This document shows positions 29,944 to 50,417 of a DNA stretch of 64,000 bases, piece by piece (the stretch's first letter is position 1; the number at the start of each line of letters is the position of its first letter). The position numbers and the translations under genes were made by a program. A model generated the notes under the pieces. It ran no database searches. It was not told where the DNA came from and saw nothing but the letters and a program-made list of their open reading frames with translations. The stretch is from a gamma proteobacterium symbiont of Taylorina sp. (GTDB taxonomy: Bacteria > Pseudomonadota > Gammaproteobacteria > GRL18). Location: assembly GCA_025655455.1 (NCBI GenBank), contig JAHXIV010000015.1:1-64000 (forward strand), written 5' to 3'.

Positions 29944-30122
29944 TTTATGCTCAAACTTGCGAAGCCTTCATGTTTTTCAAAAGAAAGAAGATAAAGACTT
30001 TTCATTTCAACATAAATTTTATCAACTTCGTTGATGACATCATATCCCTGATAAAGGTTAAGCCATATTTTTTTGTCATGGTTTTTTATGCTGATAAAAT
30101 AAATTGAGTTAATTTTAACAGC
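29940..30122 (-). pseudogene. 3' fragment of an unidentified gene coupled to the methyltransferase
   Basis: A 60-residue open stretch without a start codon ends in FEKHEGFASLSIK. Its TGA stop overlaps the methyltransferase ATG (ATGA), the usual sign of translational coupling in an operon. It may be what is left of a restriction-system partner, but the sequence is too short to identify. Confidence 0.25.
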
Positions 30123-30341
30123 TTAATGTTAAACGATACAATATAAACCTATGAATAATGTTTGATATTTTTAATACGGCTGACCATGTATATATTGGGA
30201 ATTTTTTTAAGGTCATTTAAGATTTGTGGAGAATTATACCAGGGACATAAAATATAGTTTGAATTCCCCCATGGTCGTTTTATAATAACTCTATTTTTTA
30301 ACTGATTTTTCCAGAATCTAAGGAATCAGCTTATTACTTTG

Positions 30342-30911
30342 ATGTCTTCTAAAAAAATTATTTTAGGTATTGATCCCGGTTCATTGAAAACCGGTTATGG
30401 TCTTATTGAATCCTCTGGAAACAAACTGCGTTTTTTAGAATGTGGTACTATCAGGACGGGTGGCGGCTCCTTTCCTCCCAGATTAAAGATAATTTTCAAT
30501 GATATTCGCACTATTGTTCAACAGTGGTCTCCTGATGAGATGGCGATTGAAAATGTTTTTCTGGCACGAAACCCTGATTCTGCGTTAAAATTAGGGCAGG
30601 CGAGAGGGGCGGCTATCTGTGCAGTGATGGCTGATGATATACCCGTTGCGGAATATACGGCGAATCAGGTTAAACAGGCCATTGTGGGGAAAGGTCATGC
30701 AGATAAAAGCCAGGTTCAGCATATGGTTAAAATACTGCTCAACCTGAATGAAAAACCACAGGAAGATGCAGCGGATGCACTGGCTATTGCACTGTGTCAT
30801 GCCAATACAAGAAAGACAATGGTGGAATTAGAAACTAAAGCCACGCAAAGATATCCGGCAGAGGTATTATCTGCGATTCGTGGTAGAAGAAAAAAGCGTT
30901 TTACCTTATAG
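30342..30911 (+). CDS. ruvC: Holliday junction endodeoxyribonuclease RuvC
   Basis: The 189-residue nuclease cuts Holliday junctions released by RuvAB branch migration. Active-site acidic residues are visible in ILGIDPGSLKTGYG, MAIENVFLARN, and ADALAIALCHA; the DNA-binding KGHADKSQVQHMV is present. The ATG at 30342 is chosen over an in-frame TTG one codon earlier. It heads the ruvCAB run. The yebC gene often found upstream in this class is absent, replaced by the methyltransferase relic. A REP-like palindrome separates it from ruvA. Confidence 0.97.
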   Translation: MSSKKIILGIDPGSLKTGYGLIESSGNKLRFLECGTIRTGGGSFPPRLKIIFNDIRTIVQQWSPDEMAIENVFLARNPDSALKLGQARGAAICAVMADDIPVAEYTANQVKQAIVGKGHADKSQVQHMVKILLNLNEKPQEDAADALAIALCHANTRKTMVELETKATQRYPAEVLSAIRGRRKKRFTL

Positions 30912-30929
30912 ATAGCTGTAATCTATGAA

Positions 30930-31004
30930 GGGGTCAGAGTCAAATGGTGCAAATACTGACATTTAATAAACACTGAATGATCTATACCATTTGACTCCGA
31001 CCCC
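30930..31004. repeat. GGGGTCAGAGTCAAA-type palindromic repeat, copy 2
   Basis: GGGGTCAGAGTCAAATGGT (30930-30948) and its inverse (30986-31004) match at 18 of 19 positions and enclose 37 bases. The arms match those of the copy at 12388-12423. It sits between ruvC and ruvA without breaking either gene. Confidence 0.8.
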
Positions 31005-31022
31005 AAAAATATAGGAAATTTA

Positions 31023-31640
31023 ATGATAGGACGATTGTCTGGTATTCTGATTCAGAAGCAACCCCCGCAATTAATGATTGATATTCACGGGGTCGGTTAT
31101 GAAGTACAGGCGCCTATGAGTACCTTTTATCAGTTACCTGAGCTGGATCAGCCTGTTGTTTTATTAATTCACATGGTCGTACGTGAAGATGCGCAATTAT
31201 TGTATGGATTTTATAGTGAGTCAGAACGTCTACTCTTCGAAAGCCTGATTAAAGTGAATGGTGTGGGTCCCAAACTTGCCTTAACTATTTTATCCGGCAT
31301 CAGTGCTGATGAATTTGTTAAAGTGATAAGAAATAATGATGAAAGCGGATTGATTCGCTTGCCGGGTATCGGTAAAAAAACAGCACAGCGATTGATTGTT
31401 GAAATGAAAGACCGATTTGATGATTGGAAGGGTGATACCGATAATACGGGAAGTTATGCAACTGAATCCGGGAGCTTATCCAATGAACAGGATATTATTA
31501 AAGAATCTGTAAGTGCGTTGATTGCATTGGGATATAAGCCGGTAGAAGCCTCTAAAATGATAAGTCAACTGGATACGCAGGATCAAAGCAGTGAAATGTT
31601 AATTAAACAAGCCTTACAAAATACCGTAAAAAAATATTAG
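31023..31640 (+). CDS. ruvA: Holliday junction branch migration protein RuvA
   Basis: The 205-residue subunit binds four-way junctions and loads RuvB. The N-terminal OB fold ([20 protein letters not shown], then VGYEVQAP) is followed by helix-hairpin-helix motifs ([18 protein letters not shown] and [19 protein letters not shown]) and a C-terminal RuvB-contact domain ([20 protein letters not shown]). Length is standard. ruvB follows after 4 bases. Confidence 0.98.
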
Positions 31641-41496: not shown

Positions 41497-41754
41497 CTAC
41501 TTCCTCCCTGCTTTCATTATCAATCCTGCCTGAAATAACAGTGTTTCAATCATGTGGCTGCACTGATCAATAACATAAGTATCTTCAAAGGCAATCTCAC
41601 TGCCACTAGACAGGTTTGTAACAATGGTATTTAAAAAATTTATCTGATCCATCAGAATAGAATGAGCATCATAATCAATCTCTTCACATGGTGGAACAGT
41701 AAAGTATTTCTCTGGCAATCCCTCAAGGTTGACAGGTTCAGTCAATGAAAGCAC
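41497..41754 (-). CDS. Small unrecognised protein, probably 5'-truncated
   Basis: The 85-residue ORF starts at a GTG and overlaps the first bases of the opposite-strand C13-protease relic. Homology of that relic begins right at this overlap, so the same junction probably removed the original 5' ends of both genes. The remaining sequence (MDQINFLNTIVTNLSSGSEI, MIETLLFQAGLIMKAGRK) looks like a genuine helical coding region but is unknown to me. Confidence 0.45.
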   Translation of the reverse strand: MLSLTEPVNLEGLPEKYFTVPPCEEIDYDAHSILMDQINFLNTIVTNLSSGSEIAFEDTYVIDQCSHMIETLLFQAGLIMKAGRK

Positions 41755-43691
41755 ACCAGTTTTGGTCTATTTGATTGACCATGGAGGTAGTAATCATTTC
41801 TACTTATACAAACCCGCTAATGGTTATGCTGAAGTTGTAACAGCAGATGAAGTTTCAAGTTGGTTAAATATGCTCCAAGGCAAGTCCAAAGCACGTGTGA
41901 CTTTAGTCTATGATGCCTGTCATTCAGGCAGCTTTATGGATGAGTTAAAACAATCATCCTCTCAGGACTTTGACAGAAGTCTGCTGTTCAGTTCAACCCC
42001 TGAACAGTTGGCCTATTTTGGTGCCAAAGGTGCTTTGTCCTATTCTCATTTTTTCTGGAATAATATCAGTCAGGGGATGGATTTGCGTACTGCTCACCGC
42101 TCAGCCACCGTTGCGGTGCGTGCAGTGACCCAGAATGATGGCAGGAGTTATCAAACCACAGTGATAGATGATAATGGTGACGGTGAAGATAATTACGTGG
42201 ATGGTTCACTAGCCAGGGATACTTATTTAGGCATTGATATCAATAAAACCGTAACTTATCCTCAGATAGTCAAACATCAGGGTAGTAGTACCACCATCGA
42301 TATCAGCCAAAACGGCAAGCTGGATTTATTTGCTCGTGTGGATTTAGTTAAAGATAAAATTGAACGAGTCTGGGTCATTGTCATCCCTCCCGATAGCAAG
42401 ACTACTGGTAGTGAAGCAATAACAGAGCTACCTGTGATTGAATTGGATAAGTATGATGCTATTAGTGGAGAATATAGAGCAACTTCTGATATCTTCAGGC
42501 AAAGTGGCAAATATACGGTGTCGTACTATGCTAAAACTAAGACTGGAGTTAACTCACGCTTTCCTCTTGTCAGCCTAATCATGGTCACTGACTCAGGCTA
42601 TCAGGCGCTGGAACAAAAGGATTTACATGCTGTTATTGTGGTGGGAGAAGATGCCATAAACCACTTACACAAAGCGGCCACTAATAATGCCAATCTGGCT
42701 TATCAAACTCTGAGAAACAGGGGCGTAAACCGGGATAATATCTATTATCTTAATAATGTACCTCAAGATGCCGATGGTGATGGACAAATCGATACCCAAT
42801 CTAAAACAGTGAATTCCAGTGCCATTAATAGCGCTATTAAGCAATGGGCTCAATCTAAAGTCAATAGCACCACACCCTTACTGATTTATCTAACTGGTAA
42901 TGGTGGTGATGAAGAATTTATTGTCAGTGCGAGTGATACACTCTCTGCCAGCACTCTGGCGAATTCTGATAAAGAATATGAACGCATTAACCTGTTTTCT
43001 ACCCAGGCAGAGCAAGGTGCCTATTATGGTGCAGATGGACAATTATCCTTTTCCTACTTTTTCTGGAGCAATACGGCACGAGGATTAGATGTCCGTCGTG
43101 CTTTTTTAAATACCCGAAGAACCTTATCAACGGCTACCCGAAGTCTGCGTAGTTATCAACAGGCTCTAATGGATGATAATGGGGAGCCGATTCAACTGCT
43201 GAATTTACCACTAAGTATAGGCAAAGTGGTTCCAATGGTACTCTAACAGTTAATGTTGCTTCCGGTACTGTTGAAGTCACTGATAAAATGATATCACTTA
43301 TACTCTAAACGCAGGACAGGAAAAAATCATTCCATATAAAGTACCACGTGCAGACTGGGTATTGCCTGTTGATAATGACATACTCAGTGGTGGTGAAAAC
43401 AATCTGCTTGTTTGGAAGGAATATCCAGGTGCCAGCAGTTATCAAATGGAGTTTAATCTTCCTACTCCGGTATTTTCTGAAGAAAATGCCAGTCGTCCAC
43501 AGTATCAAAAACAGGTCATTCCATTGCCATCAGGTTCTTATGCTAAGGTCGATGGTGATTTAATAGCCTTTAATCTGCCACTACCAAAAGGGGCTGATGG
43601 ACTGGTTTTAGAGTTGAGAATATTTGCTTTAGATGCTGCCGGCAATATTATTAGTGAAAGCATTTCCAGTGACAGTAATCAGAGACTGTGA
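41729..43691 (+). pseudogene. Broken C13/caspase-like protease gene with tandem protease-like domains
   Basis: The first unit keeps a catalytic His (YLIDHGG) and Cys (LVYDACHSGSF) typical of C13 (legumain/caspase-clan) peptidases, but its N-terminal half is gone. A second unit (HAVIVVGEDAINHLHKAATN onward) repeats the fold. There the His position reads TGNGG and the Cys segment is deleted, so it is inactive. The reading frame breaks near 43225, again near 43290, and resumes as GQEKIIPYKVPRADW into a beta-sandwich-like tail ending at 43691. Full-length relatives are secreted. This copy cannot make a whole protein. Confidence 0.78.
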
Positions 43692-45481: not shown

Positions 45482-45778
45482 GGGATAGGAAATTCAATAG
45501 CGTTTTTCAATCTATAAACCGATAATTATGATGATTATAGTTTTATTAATGTTTTGGAATCTTGTGATTAGTGATAGAGAATTCAAAAAAATGATTCGAA
45601 AATCCATACCCTCAGTTTTTGATGTGGATCTCCAGATAATGACCTTTATGTGTAGTTGGCGAACAACAATACCTACCAGGCACCATTTCATTGTCTTTTT
45701 GCCCCATATATAAATATTTAACTTAACATAATTTTACTGATATTCTGAATGGATGTTGCACTAATTCAGGAGATCAAT

Positions 45779-46333
45779 ATGAATTCTTATGACCAATCAA
45801 CCGCATGGTTGCATAATAGTCCGTTAGCTCCTTATATAGACGCTTATAAACAACATTTTATTCAGGAGTCCTATTCACCAAAAACCAGTAAAGCCTACTT
45901 TCATTATGTAGCCCATTTTGCTTATTGGATGACACAAACTAATCTTAATATTCATCATGTAAATGAGACCACAATCCAAGAATTTATCAATGGATGTCAG
46001 TCAAACTGTGCAAGTATATCTTATACTGAGAAATGTATGCATGCAGCATTGATTCATCTTATTAATATTCTTGTTGAAGAAGGAGTATCAATTTATCCCG
46101 ATAAAAAACCGACTCTAGTAGATGAAGAGTTACAAGCTTTTGACGACTACATGAATCATGTTAAAGGGCTTGCCCCTAAAACACGGCATCAATACCTTTA
46201 TATAACTGAGCGATTACTCTGTGAAAAATTTTCTACAGGAGCTGTTGTGATTTCAGAAATTATGCCAGAAGATGTTCGTCAATTCATAAACCATCAGAAA
46301 GAACTTTATACGACTTTTTATTGCGGAGTTTAA
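45779..46333 (+). pseudogene. Truncated tyrosine-recombinase (XerC/D-like), N-terminal domain only
   Basis: The 184-residue product keeps the SAM-like DNA-binding domains of phage-type integrases (YIDAYKQHFIQESYSPKTSK, HFAYWMTQTNLNIHHVNETT, FDDYMNHVKGLAPKTRHQYL). It ends at LYTTFYCGV, before the catalytic domain with its Arg-His-Arg-Tyr residues. ATG 45779 has AGGAG upstream; an in-frame ATG 30 bases earlier does not. It is the second integrase relic of the region. Confidence 0.75.
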
Positions 46334-47392: not shown

Positions 47393-48655
47393 CTATTTTC
47401 TATTTTCGACATGACCATCTATATACAGATGAATATCATCATCACCTCCAAGCTGTCCATCCGGGCCATGGGATGTCATTAAAATCGTTGACGACGCTGC
47501 TGTATTATCGTCTCTATATCCAGGATAATAAATATAATCCTCCCCCCAGGGATCTGGTTCTACAGGATCACAAAATGAACAATAACCTCCGTCAGCCATT
47601 TTTTGCAATGATGCTGGAAAATATCCGCTATTATCACCTGAATACATAAGAAGGGTCAGTCCAAATTGTTTTAACATTGACATTGCCTTTATTATTTTCA
47701 TACGACCTATTCCACATGACTTACAATAGGTGGGTATTGCCACTTCGGATAAAATTTCTAAAATAGCGACTTGAAGAGAGTGTTCAATTAATGTAAAACG
47801 TTTTTGAGGTATTTTAAACATTGTCTTACCTGACCGGGTTTGAACCGTGTTTTCCAAAGCAGTGATCCAGTCATTCACCTTAGTCCTGAAATCATCGGGA
47901 CAGCTATCAAAGCAGATCTGATTCATTTGTGCAAAAGACTCGCCAAAAGTCACCAGATCGGTATTGTGGGTATTCTGATACTCCTGATAAATGGAAGTAA
48001 ACAATGTACATGCCTGCTGAATATTAAAACCAGAGGCAGGTTCTCCTTTTAAATCCACCAGTGCTCCCCAGTTGCCATCAGGTTTAATAAATTGCAACCG
48101 GGTTCCATCCCATTGATGTTGTGCAACCGGTCCCGTCGGGCCGTCAACACCTTGTGACCCCTCTACACCCTGTGGTCCATCAGAACCTTTTGAACCCTGT
48201 TCACCTTGTATTCCTTGTTTACCTTGTTCACCTTGCATTCCTTGTATGCCCTGTACACCTTGAAAACCTTCAGGTCCTTGAGATCCTTGAGGTCCTACTG
48301 CACCGATGGTTAAATCATAAATAGCCGTTTTATCCTGTTTAAACTTGCTGTCAGTGCTGACAGCCACCATATAATCCCCATCAGACATCATAGCTGTTAA
48401 TACTATCTGTATATCTGAAAGATAGTCTTCATCAAGATCATAATGGATACTATCACCAATAAAAATATAAGGAGCATCACCTTTAGACATAAAGTTAATA
48501 CCTGTAATTGTCAAGGTCACTTCAGGCCATGTACCATAAGCAGTATGTATTTCCGCAATGATGGGATACTTATTATCTGCGGCAATAAGCAAATTGTTGA
48601 AAAACAAAGCTGTAATAAGCATCAGAAGTTTTATACTGGATTTGAATGATTTCAT
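47393..48655 (-). CDS. Secreted collagen-like protein with pseudopilin-like C-terminal domain
   Basis: The 420-residue protein has a signal peptide (about 1-26), an IPT/TIG-like beta-sandwich (about 28-117), and a collagen-like tract of about 19 G-x-y triplets (121-177, GPQGSQGPEGFQGVQGIQGM onward). A segment of unknown fold follows. The C-terminus resembles type II pseudopilins: LKQFGLTLLMYSGDNSGYFP, PDPWGEDYIYYPG, SHGPDGQLGGDDDIH and a final DGHVE. It lacks a prepilin signal itself. It is a tandem paralogue of the gene 43 bases upstream. Surface exposure and adhesion or host contact are inferred. Confidence 0.8.
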   Translation of the reverse strand: MKSFKSSIKLLMLITALFFNNLLIAADNKYPIIAEIHTAYGTWPEVTLTITGINFMSKGDAPYIFIGDSIHYDLDEDYLSDIQIVLTAMMSDGDYMVAVSTDSKFKQDKTAIYDLTIGAVGPQGSQGPEGFQGVQGIQGMQGEQGKQGIQGEQGSKGSDGPQGVEGSQGVDGPTGPVAQHQWDGTRLQFIKPDGNWGALVDLKGEPASGFNIQQACTLFTSIYQEYQNTHNTDLVTFGESFAQMNQICFDSCPDDFRTKVNDWITALENTVQTRSGKTMFKIPQKRFTLIEHSLQVAILEILSEVAIPTYCKSCGIGRMKIIKAMSMLKQFGLTLLMYSGDNSGYFPASLQKMADGGYCSFCDPVEPDPWGEDYIYYPGYRDDNTAASSTILMTSHGPDGQLGGDDDIHLYIDGHVENRK

Positions 48656-48698
48656 GACAATATCCCCATTTTTATTTGTATTTCACAAGCCGGTAAAT

Positions 48699-50417
48699 CT
48701 ATTTAATACATTTTTCAGATGAACTACACTCAAAGTAATCCGACACAGAACCTAACAGGTCAAAATCTGAAGGCACCCTGTCTATACCTGGAGCTGACAA
48801 AGTATAAGTATTTTCAGAAGCATTATAGACATAGTTAATTATCAACATCCAGGCATCTGTAGGCAGTTCGTCAATCAGATTGTTGTCGATTAATGCGTTA
48901 AGAGTTTCAGGATATTTTCCATTGCCAATGTTTTTGGCAAAGTTTTCCAGGGTATCCTGAATGGTGCCCAATGCATAAGTCGTATCAAGAATATAATTAA
49001 GAATCTCATTATTTTTCAGATCATTTGAGCGGAGAGGATTATAACCATATAAACTGTCATAACGTAAATCATCCCCTGTTCCCTCAATGCCATCCGCCCC
49101 TTTTGAAGTAATGGAATAGGGCGTATCAGCCAAACCACTATAATAATAAATAAATTTTTGTCCCCAGCCATCATAAAAATTGCTGTCATCATATTGATAG
49201 GGCCAGGCTATGCTGCTTCCATAGGCGTAAAGGGTATAGGGTATTATTTCCAGTAAATCCTCCAGAAATCGGGGAAAGGTTTGAGTAGGAGCACCACCCG
49301 AACTAACCCAATTAACATATTGCTGAGAACCACCCCATTGAAAACTTTCCAGATAAGTATAAGGGAGATGTGAATTATCAGGGCCTTCAATGGCTTTGAC
49401 CAGAGAATACATGTGGCTTTGTGTTGTCACTTTATTGGTTTTTAATACATCTGGAGCATCCAATAAGTCAATTTTTGCATTCCAGAAACTATCTACCAGG
49501 CTTTTACAATATAAAGGTGAATCACTTTCTTTCAGACTGTTAATAATGGAGAGCAAATTGATTCTGGTGCTTGAACCCGGTGTGGTCTGGCTTGTATACA
49601 GCAAACTATTATTCGCCTGGTGTATAAAGTTATTAAAACTGACCGGGCAGCTATGCAGGCAAATTCGCCTGATTTCATCAATCGGAACCTTTAAACTAAA
49701 ATCGTTTGCCGGAACCCCTTGTTTAAGTGATTTTAAATATTGATAGGTAGACAGCAGGCATAATTGTGATATGTCCAGACCCGTTTGTGCTGCTTTAAGC
49801 TCAACAGGAATGTCCCAAACTCCCCATTGACTCGCTGGATCCACATTAATCTGCAATTTTGTTCCCTCCCATCGAAAACCTGGTGCCAGTCCGCTTTCAC
49901 CTTGGTCACCACCCTGTTCACCTTGTTCACCAAGTATGCCCTGTTCACCCTGTATACCTTGTTCACCTGGCATACCTTGTTTACCTTGTTCACCTTGCAT
50001 ACCTTGTTCACCCTGAGTCCCTTGAGTCCCTTGAGTCCCTTGAGAACCCACAGCACCAACTGCACCGATGGTTAACTCAAAAGCAGCTGTTTTATCTTTT
50101 TTAAACTGACTATCGATGCTCACCAACATCAGGTAATCTCCTTCAGTCAAATTGGCACTGAGAATGAGTTGATTATCTGATACGGTTTCTTCATCCAATT
50201 CATAACCAACACCATAACCAAGAGAAATATAAGGCAGGGTATTTTTATTCAGGAAGTTAAATCCTGTAATGGTTATGCTAACCTCATCAGTGTCGTTAAA
50301 TTCAGTAAGTATCTCAGTAATGAAGGGGGTTTTACCATTCTCGGCAAATATCATGCTGCTGTAGAATATTATGACAAGGGTAAAAATAAGTGGCAGTTTG
50401 GATTTAATCAGATTCAT
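48699..50417 (-). CDS. Secreted collagen-like protein with GspG-like C-terminal domains (paralogue)
   Basis: The 572-residue protein has a signal peptide (about 1-25), the same IPT/TIG-like domain as its neighbour ([11 protein letters not shown] near 111-120), and a collagen tract (about 118-178) interrupted once at GGDQGESG. A long middle part follows, then two stretches like GspG C-terminal domains ([15 protein letters not shown] with [17 protein letters not shown], and [19 protein letters not shown] with [11 protein letters not shown]). The first 120 residues and the collagen start match the downstream paralogue. It is probably the first gene of the pair, with the promoter beyond 50417. 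Confidence 0.8.

Follow-up and report, generated by a model that had tools for sequence, protein, structure and literature searches.

Tandem collagen-like proteins with GspG-like C-terminal domains in a gammaproteobacterial symbiont of Taylorina sp.

Results

Two adjacent collagen-like genes share one module order

The analysed DNA, called the window here, is a stretch of 64,000 nucleotides (contig JAHXIV010000015.1 of assembly GCA_025655455.1, positions 1 to 64,000 of the forward strand) from a gamma proteobacterium symbiont of Taylorina sp. On its minus strand, it carries two intact tandem open reading frames, and all modules described for them below are on this strand. These are P0001 (47393..48655, 420 aa) and its paralogue P0002 (48699..50417, 572 aa), both with the TAG stop codon included. 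P0002 lies upstream, and since only 43 bp separate it from P0001, the two genes are probably located on one transcript. Both proteins show the same order of modules: a signal peptide, an IPT/TIG-like beta-rich domain, a collagen Gly-X-Y tract, a phage-fibre linker, a cysteine-containing helical segment and a GspG-like tail. The N-terminal 118 residues are 43% identical, and the aligned part of the tails shows about 27-32% identity. As judged by their sequences, P0001 and P0002 are old paralogues, in agreement with an initial annotation that had proposed a tandem pair at these coordinates. In a crude test, third codon positions were the most divergent ones between the two genes in every module. 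Together with the intact reading frames, this is as expected if selection acts on both proteins at the protein level. Two plus-strand genes were observed elsewhere in the window. The first (41729-43246) encodes a protein similar to Peptidase_C13; its second half is also similar and contains a DADGDGQID calcium-type repeat. The other (45749-46333) encodes a 194-aa protein resembling tyrosine recombinases, which contains only the N-terminal SAM-like domains and is apparently a truncated integrase.

By inspection, a Sec-type signal peptide was assigned to residues 1-26 of P0001 (48578..48655) and a signal peptide to residues 1-25 of P0002 (50343..50417). The beta-rich domain of about 90 residues that follows (P0001 residues 27-117, 48305..48577; P0002 residues 26-117, 50067..50342) resembles IPT/TIG, a similarity that is suggestive but not established. 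With PF01833, P0001 and P0002 each scored 12.8 bits and a further paralogue, L005, scored 15 bits, all below the cut-off of 20.9; the three alignments all start at profile position 1. A PDB search with the N-terminal profile matched Drosophila Egalitarian (E 0.0014); this match was rejected as spurious, the profile consisting of four sequences and the 53 aligned positions including part of the signal peptide. The collagen-like tract described in the initial annotation was confirmed. P0001 carries 20 uninterrupted Gly-X-Y triplets (residues 118-177, 48125..48304; PF01391 38.2 bits) and P0002 carries 18, followed by an interruption (residues 118-171, 49905..50066; 32.1 bits), both above the PF01391 cut-off.

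A phage-fibre linker and a cysteine segment follow the collagen tract

The initial annotation did not list the next module, a linker found after the collagen tract in both proteins; the decayed prepilin N-terminus of P0001, the second T2SSG-like copy of P0002 and the paralogues with other ends, all described below, are likewise absent from it. In P0001, the linker HQWDGTRLQFIKPDGNWGALVDLKGEP comprises residues 180-206 (48038..48118), and the aligned stretch of P0002 comprises residues 182-208 (49794..49874). No Pfam match was obtained for it in either protein. Fibre proteins encoded on viral contigs contain a motif, placed behind a collagen tract or between two of them, to which the P0001 linker is up to 63-76% identical; the same motif is present in Vibrio phage tail fibres. 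The pattern WDGTxLxFxxPDGxWGxxVDLxG recurs at such positions in three fibre-like viral contig proteins (L049, L055 and L057), several times between collagen runs in L049. Possibly, the motif sets the register of the triple helix or serves as a trimerisation module. It is followed by a predicted-helical segment (P0001 residues 207-280, 47816..48037) whose cysteines Cys216, Cys248 and Cys252 are conserved in P0002, where the aligned segment (residues 209-306, 49500..49793) contains Cys220, Cys253, Cys257 and Cys304. No further relative of this segment was found elsewhere in the same genome.

The occurrence of the WDGT...PDG.WG..VDL linker beside collagen in viral fibre proteins, as well as the truncated integrase at 45749-46333, might indicate that P0001 and P0002 belong to the tail fibres of a phage or prophage and not to the cell surface. 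However, both proteins carry an N-terminal signal peptide, the neighbours that could be named by Pfam are not virion genes, and no relative of the N-terminal domain was found in viral contigs. We therefore consider a role as tail-fibre components very improbable.

The C-terminal tail of P0001 is homologous to GspG

Residues 281-420 of P0001 matched TIGR01710 (GspG) with an E-value of 2.4e-7 and 30.8 bits over profile positions 2-125 of 134, a score far under the equivalog cut-off of 88.85. The globular heads scanned alone scored above the PF08334 (T2SSG) cut-off of 21, with 22 bits for P0001 (residues 313-420, 47396..47719) and 23.4 bits for P0002 (first core, residues 405-455, 49053..49205), and a genome-wide search flagged both proteins above this cut-off. 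Scanned as whole proteins, they scored just under it (16.8 and 19.6 bits, respectively). Using a lineage profile, built from 15 GspG sequences of the family to which the organism belongs, we obtained 38.9 bits for P0001 and 27.6 bits for P0002, and the best of 2000 composition-preserving shuffles per head reached 6.8 and 9.5 bits, respectively. P0001 also keeps the DPWG...Y.Y core of GspG. The initial annotation had described these tails as resembling either type II secretion pseudopilins or H-X9-DG-type domains. The family matches uphold the first part of this description. The second part was dropped, as no H-X9-DG or DUF1559 prepilin-like family appeared among the NCBIfam and Pfam matches at E<=10.

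The match is not confined to the low-complexity Gly/Asp loop, a possibility that had been raised along with the initial annotation. Residues 271-392 of P0001, which exclude this loop, scored 33.2 bits, and none of 5000 shuffles reached this value (maximum 8.7). The loop alone scored 6.5 bits on the lineage profile. Residues 313-392 alone still gave 13.5 bits, again reached by none of 5000 shuffles. Searches with the P0001 tail retrieved reading frames of pseudopilin size (125-206 aa in most cases) from 31 further genomes of the class, and the matches on plasmids were annotated gspG genes. Across class, phylum and plasmids, the matches were either of pseudopilin size or annotated gspG and were nearly full length; most of those in the class start at residue 3-6 of the query, corresponding to the prepilin motif. 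Our sequence comparisons thus indicate that the GspG homology of the P0001 tail is real and not an artefact of the Gly/Asp loop. Pseudopilin ancestry is less well supported for P0002 considered by itself, where the match at the first site spans only about 45 residues. A second, weaker T2SSG-like domain (residues about 485-550, 48768..48965) is sub-threshold at 15.8 bits and lacks the calcium loop; on the lineage profile it scored 12.2 bits, reached by none of 5000 shuffles.

Both heads keep a calcium-type loop

In the pseudopilin structure 3G20, calcium is coordinated by the side chains of two Asp residues, which occupy positions 3 and 11 in the motif G-x-D-G-x(5)-D-D (PMC3396595). Both proteins carry a loop of this type, GPDGQLGGDDD at residues 397-407 of P0001 (47435..47467) and its counterpart at residues 440-450 of P0002 (49068..49100), with Asp at both coordinating positions (D399 and D407 in P0001, D442 and D450 in P0002). 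The strict PERCAL motif (PMC3396595) is matched exactly by P0002, and P0001 fits the looser form. At the level of sequence, this bears out the suggestion of a calcium module in the initial annotation. Since both coordinating aspartates are kept and P0002 fits the strict motif, calcium binding by the heads is likely.

PERCAL is also known from unrelated proteins (PMC3396595), so that the tails might share only a generic calcium loop with pseudopilins. The exact motif and the short GspG match of P0002 would fit such an explanation, and it is more tenable for P0002 alone. PERCAL is a motif rather than a domain, however, and the homology of P0001 to GspG reaches far beyond it. The score retained without the loop, the low score of the loop by itself and the nearly full-length matches to pseudopilin-sized proteins all argue against a loop-only similarity, which is very unlikely for the pair.

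The prepilin N-terminus of P0001 is decayed

The GspG match of P0001 opens with MFKIPQKR/FTLIEHSLQVAILEILSEVAIPTY, where the slash marks the cut, and thereby shows the layout of a complete prepilin with leader, cleavage site, Phe1 and Glu5. Residues 271-313 alone scored 14.9 bits on the GspG profile, a value that none of 5000 shuffles reached. In this N-terminus (MFKIPQKR/FTLIEHSLQVAILEILSEVAIPTYC, residues 278-312, 47720..47824), the Gly at position -1 is replaced by Arg and polar residues break up the helix. The mean hydropathy (GRAVY) of the helix is 1.2, versus 2.64-2.83 in 15 real GspG proteins. A prepilin peptidase site, that is, Gly at -1 and a hydrophobic helix, is not present in P0001 as a consequence and is absent in P0002, where the stretch matching the prepilin part is shortened and unrecognisable. 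With Arg at -1 and a polar helix, neither cleavage by prepilin peptidase nor membrane insertion is expected for P0001. Because the cleavage Gly has been replaced and the helix is too weakly hydrophobic to span a membrane, P0001 and P0002 are not pseudopilins. They are also not stand-alone genes in a gsp operon. The same genome has its own gspD-gspG-gspH-gspI cluster, and the true gspG is located on contig C3. An origin of the tails from this gspG was not supported: it scores below the GspG of other species (25.0 bits, versus 34.6 bits for the best class matches to the P0001 tail), and no significant similarity was found at the DNA level.

As the heads are of the major-pseudopilin type and the genome has gsp genes of its own, they could dock on or cap the cell's type II secretion system or type IV (pseudo)pilus, with the stalk exported by or attached to the filament. 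However, a protein with Arg in place of the cleavage Gly and a helix that is not membrane-like cannot assemble as a normal subunit. Moreover, the two genes lie outside the gsp cluster, and the scores given above reveal no special closeness to the cell's own pseudopilus. Such docking is unlikely, and none of the results favours it. A bolder form, in which the head mimics the cell's own major pseudopilin and loads stalks onto the T2SS or type IV filament to give collagen-decorated (pseudo)pili, appears slightly less probable still.

AlphaFold models were calculated from a two-sequence alignment of the window proteins and gave a mean pLDDT of 47.5 for the P0001 head and of 32 for full-length P0002. 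In regions below pLDDT 50, the P0001 model has two helices, the second one short, followed by three strands, which is the GspG order, with the calcium loop placed between strands two and three. At these confidence values, the models are too uncertain to speak for or against a GspG fold. In a Foldseek search, this low-confidence head model had only chance matches, none at E<=0.001.

The fusion is confined to one genome in the sets searched

The N-terminal module of P0001 and P0002 is present in four genes of the same genome and was absent from 24 other genomes of the family and from an even draw of 369 genomes of the class. Three further genes of the same genome (L004, L006 and L007) carry a related second scaffold, which was likewise absent from the class draw. 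The ends of these paralogues differ: they are pseudopilin-like, Lcl_C-like at a sub-threshold level (L003) or short without assignment (L004-L007). No other copy of the collagen and GspG-like fusion was found in the 24 family, 369 class and 398 phylum genomes, which are overlapping sets, and plasmids yielded no relative of whole P0001. Scans of a genome collection with P0001 and the N-terminal alignment, which use short peptide patterns and miss distant relatives, also returned none. Four unusually long frames (566, 551, 270 and 261 aa) from class and phylum genomes were rejected as fusions because each proved to be a normal gspG gene with gspF and gspH as neighbours. Among openly licensed papers that mention both collagen-like proteins and pseudopilins, none describes, judging by title and abstract, a fusion of the two. 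The view of the initial annotation that no system of this architecture has been described is in line with these searches.

Further collagen-like loci were noted. At L003/L077 (G000:C2, about 208,700-210,900), the collagen-like paralogue L003 with its weak Lcl_C-like end has a resolvase gene upstream and, 27 bp beyond it, a gene in convergent orientation for a reverse transcriptase (RVT_1, 75 bits). A diversity-generating retroelement was rejected for this locus, as no template/variable repeat pair of at least 45 nt was found within 11 kb. L037 (G000:C7, about 111,700-112,700, minus strand) encodes a secreted protein of 334 aa that consists almost entirely of GMSGMNG-type repeats. It scores 86 bits with PF01391 but resembles a collagen less than a structural protein rich in Gly and Met, and is perhaps sulfur-globule-like. 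Another combination of scaffolds is found in L040 (G000:C23, about 30,000-31,100), a secreted protein in which collagen is preceded by TSP3-like calcium repeats and a PKD domain.

The degenerate prepilin part and the lack of a relative of the fusion in the genomes searched would also be compatible with decaying relics of a collagen gene and a gspG gene that became joined by chance and have no function. On the other hand, two diverged copies retain open frames, stay in Gly-X-Y phase and keep both the calcium aspartates and conserved cysteines, and third codon positions differ most, albeit in a crude test. These features make a relic rather improbable.

Discussion

We propose, with a probability of roughly 0.55, that P0001 and P0002 are exported trimeric collagen-stalk proteins with a calcium-stabilised, pseudopilin-derived head, and that they arose by fusion with a gspG-like gene and subsequent duplication. 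A gspG-like gene, leader included, would have been joined to the end of a gene for a secreted collagen-like protein. Later, the fused gene would have been duplicated, and the P0002 copy would have lost the prepilin part. The N-terminal signal peptide is predicted to export both proteins, which might then cross the outer membrane via the T2SS of the same genome. Trimerisation would be driven by the collagen tract and assisted by the phage-fibre linker. The pseudopilin-derived domain would form a calcium-stabilised globular head at the tip of a short stalk, while the former transmembrane helix may have become a soluble helix that joins stalk and head. By analogy with the Lcl_C head of Legionella Lcl, the head most likely binds a ligand, matrix or neighbouring molecules outside the cell. 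The low confidence of the models, the sub-threshold TIG scores, the lack of homologues with the fusion in the genomes searched and the GspG match of P0002, which covers about 45 residues and lacks the prepilin part, weigh against this explanation.

If this proposal is correct, a secretion-machine subunit now serves outside the cell as the head of a stalk protein, and its old membrane helix has been caught in the middle of decay. The occurrence of collagen stalks with several unrelated ends in one genome suggests that the stalks act as general platforms for display, with interchangeable heads. The kept calcium site provides a directly testable handle.

Besides the PERCAL motif discussed above, three known systems are closest to these proteins. 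With GspG (TIGR01710/PF08334), P0001 has in common the whole-length homology, the calcium loop including its two aspartates and the DPWG...Y.Y core. P0001 differs from it by the Arg in place of the cleavage Gly, by the helix that is not membrane-like and by its location outside any gsp operon; moreover, its GspG-like domain forms the end of a collagen protein of 280 residues that carries a Sec signal of its own. The EPcl proteins of E. coli, prophage collagen-like fibre proteins with trimeric stalks and globular ends (PMC3368898), likewise link collagen tracts to phage-fibre modules. However, they are prophage tail-fibre-like, carry PfN/PfC domains and lack a pseudopilin domain, whereas P0001 and P0002 have signal peptides. 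The Legionella collagen-like adhesin Lcl (lpg2644) is found on the cell surface as a lollipop-shaped trimer (PMC11162425). Like P0001 and P0002, it is secreted, with a Gly-X-Y stalk set between an N-terminal region and a globular domain at the C-terminus. P0001 and P0002 possess neither the Lcl_C (DUF1566) domain nor the N-terminal amphipathic helix of Lcl. Their head is instead derived from GspG, and they have an IPT/TIG-like domain as well as a phage-fibre linker. By this analogy, they are most likely trimeric, lollipop-like surface proteins with exchangeable heads, and their architecture is a variation on bacterial collagen-like proteins for which no counterpart was found in the genomes and papers searched.
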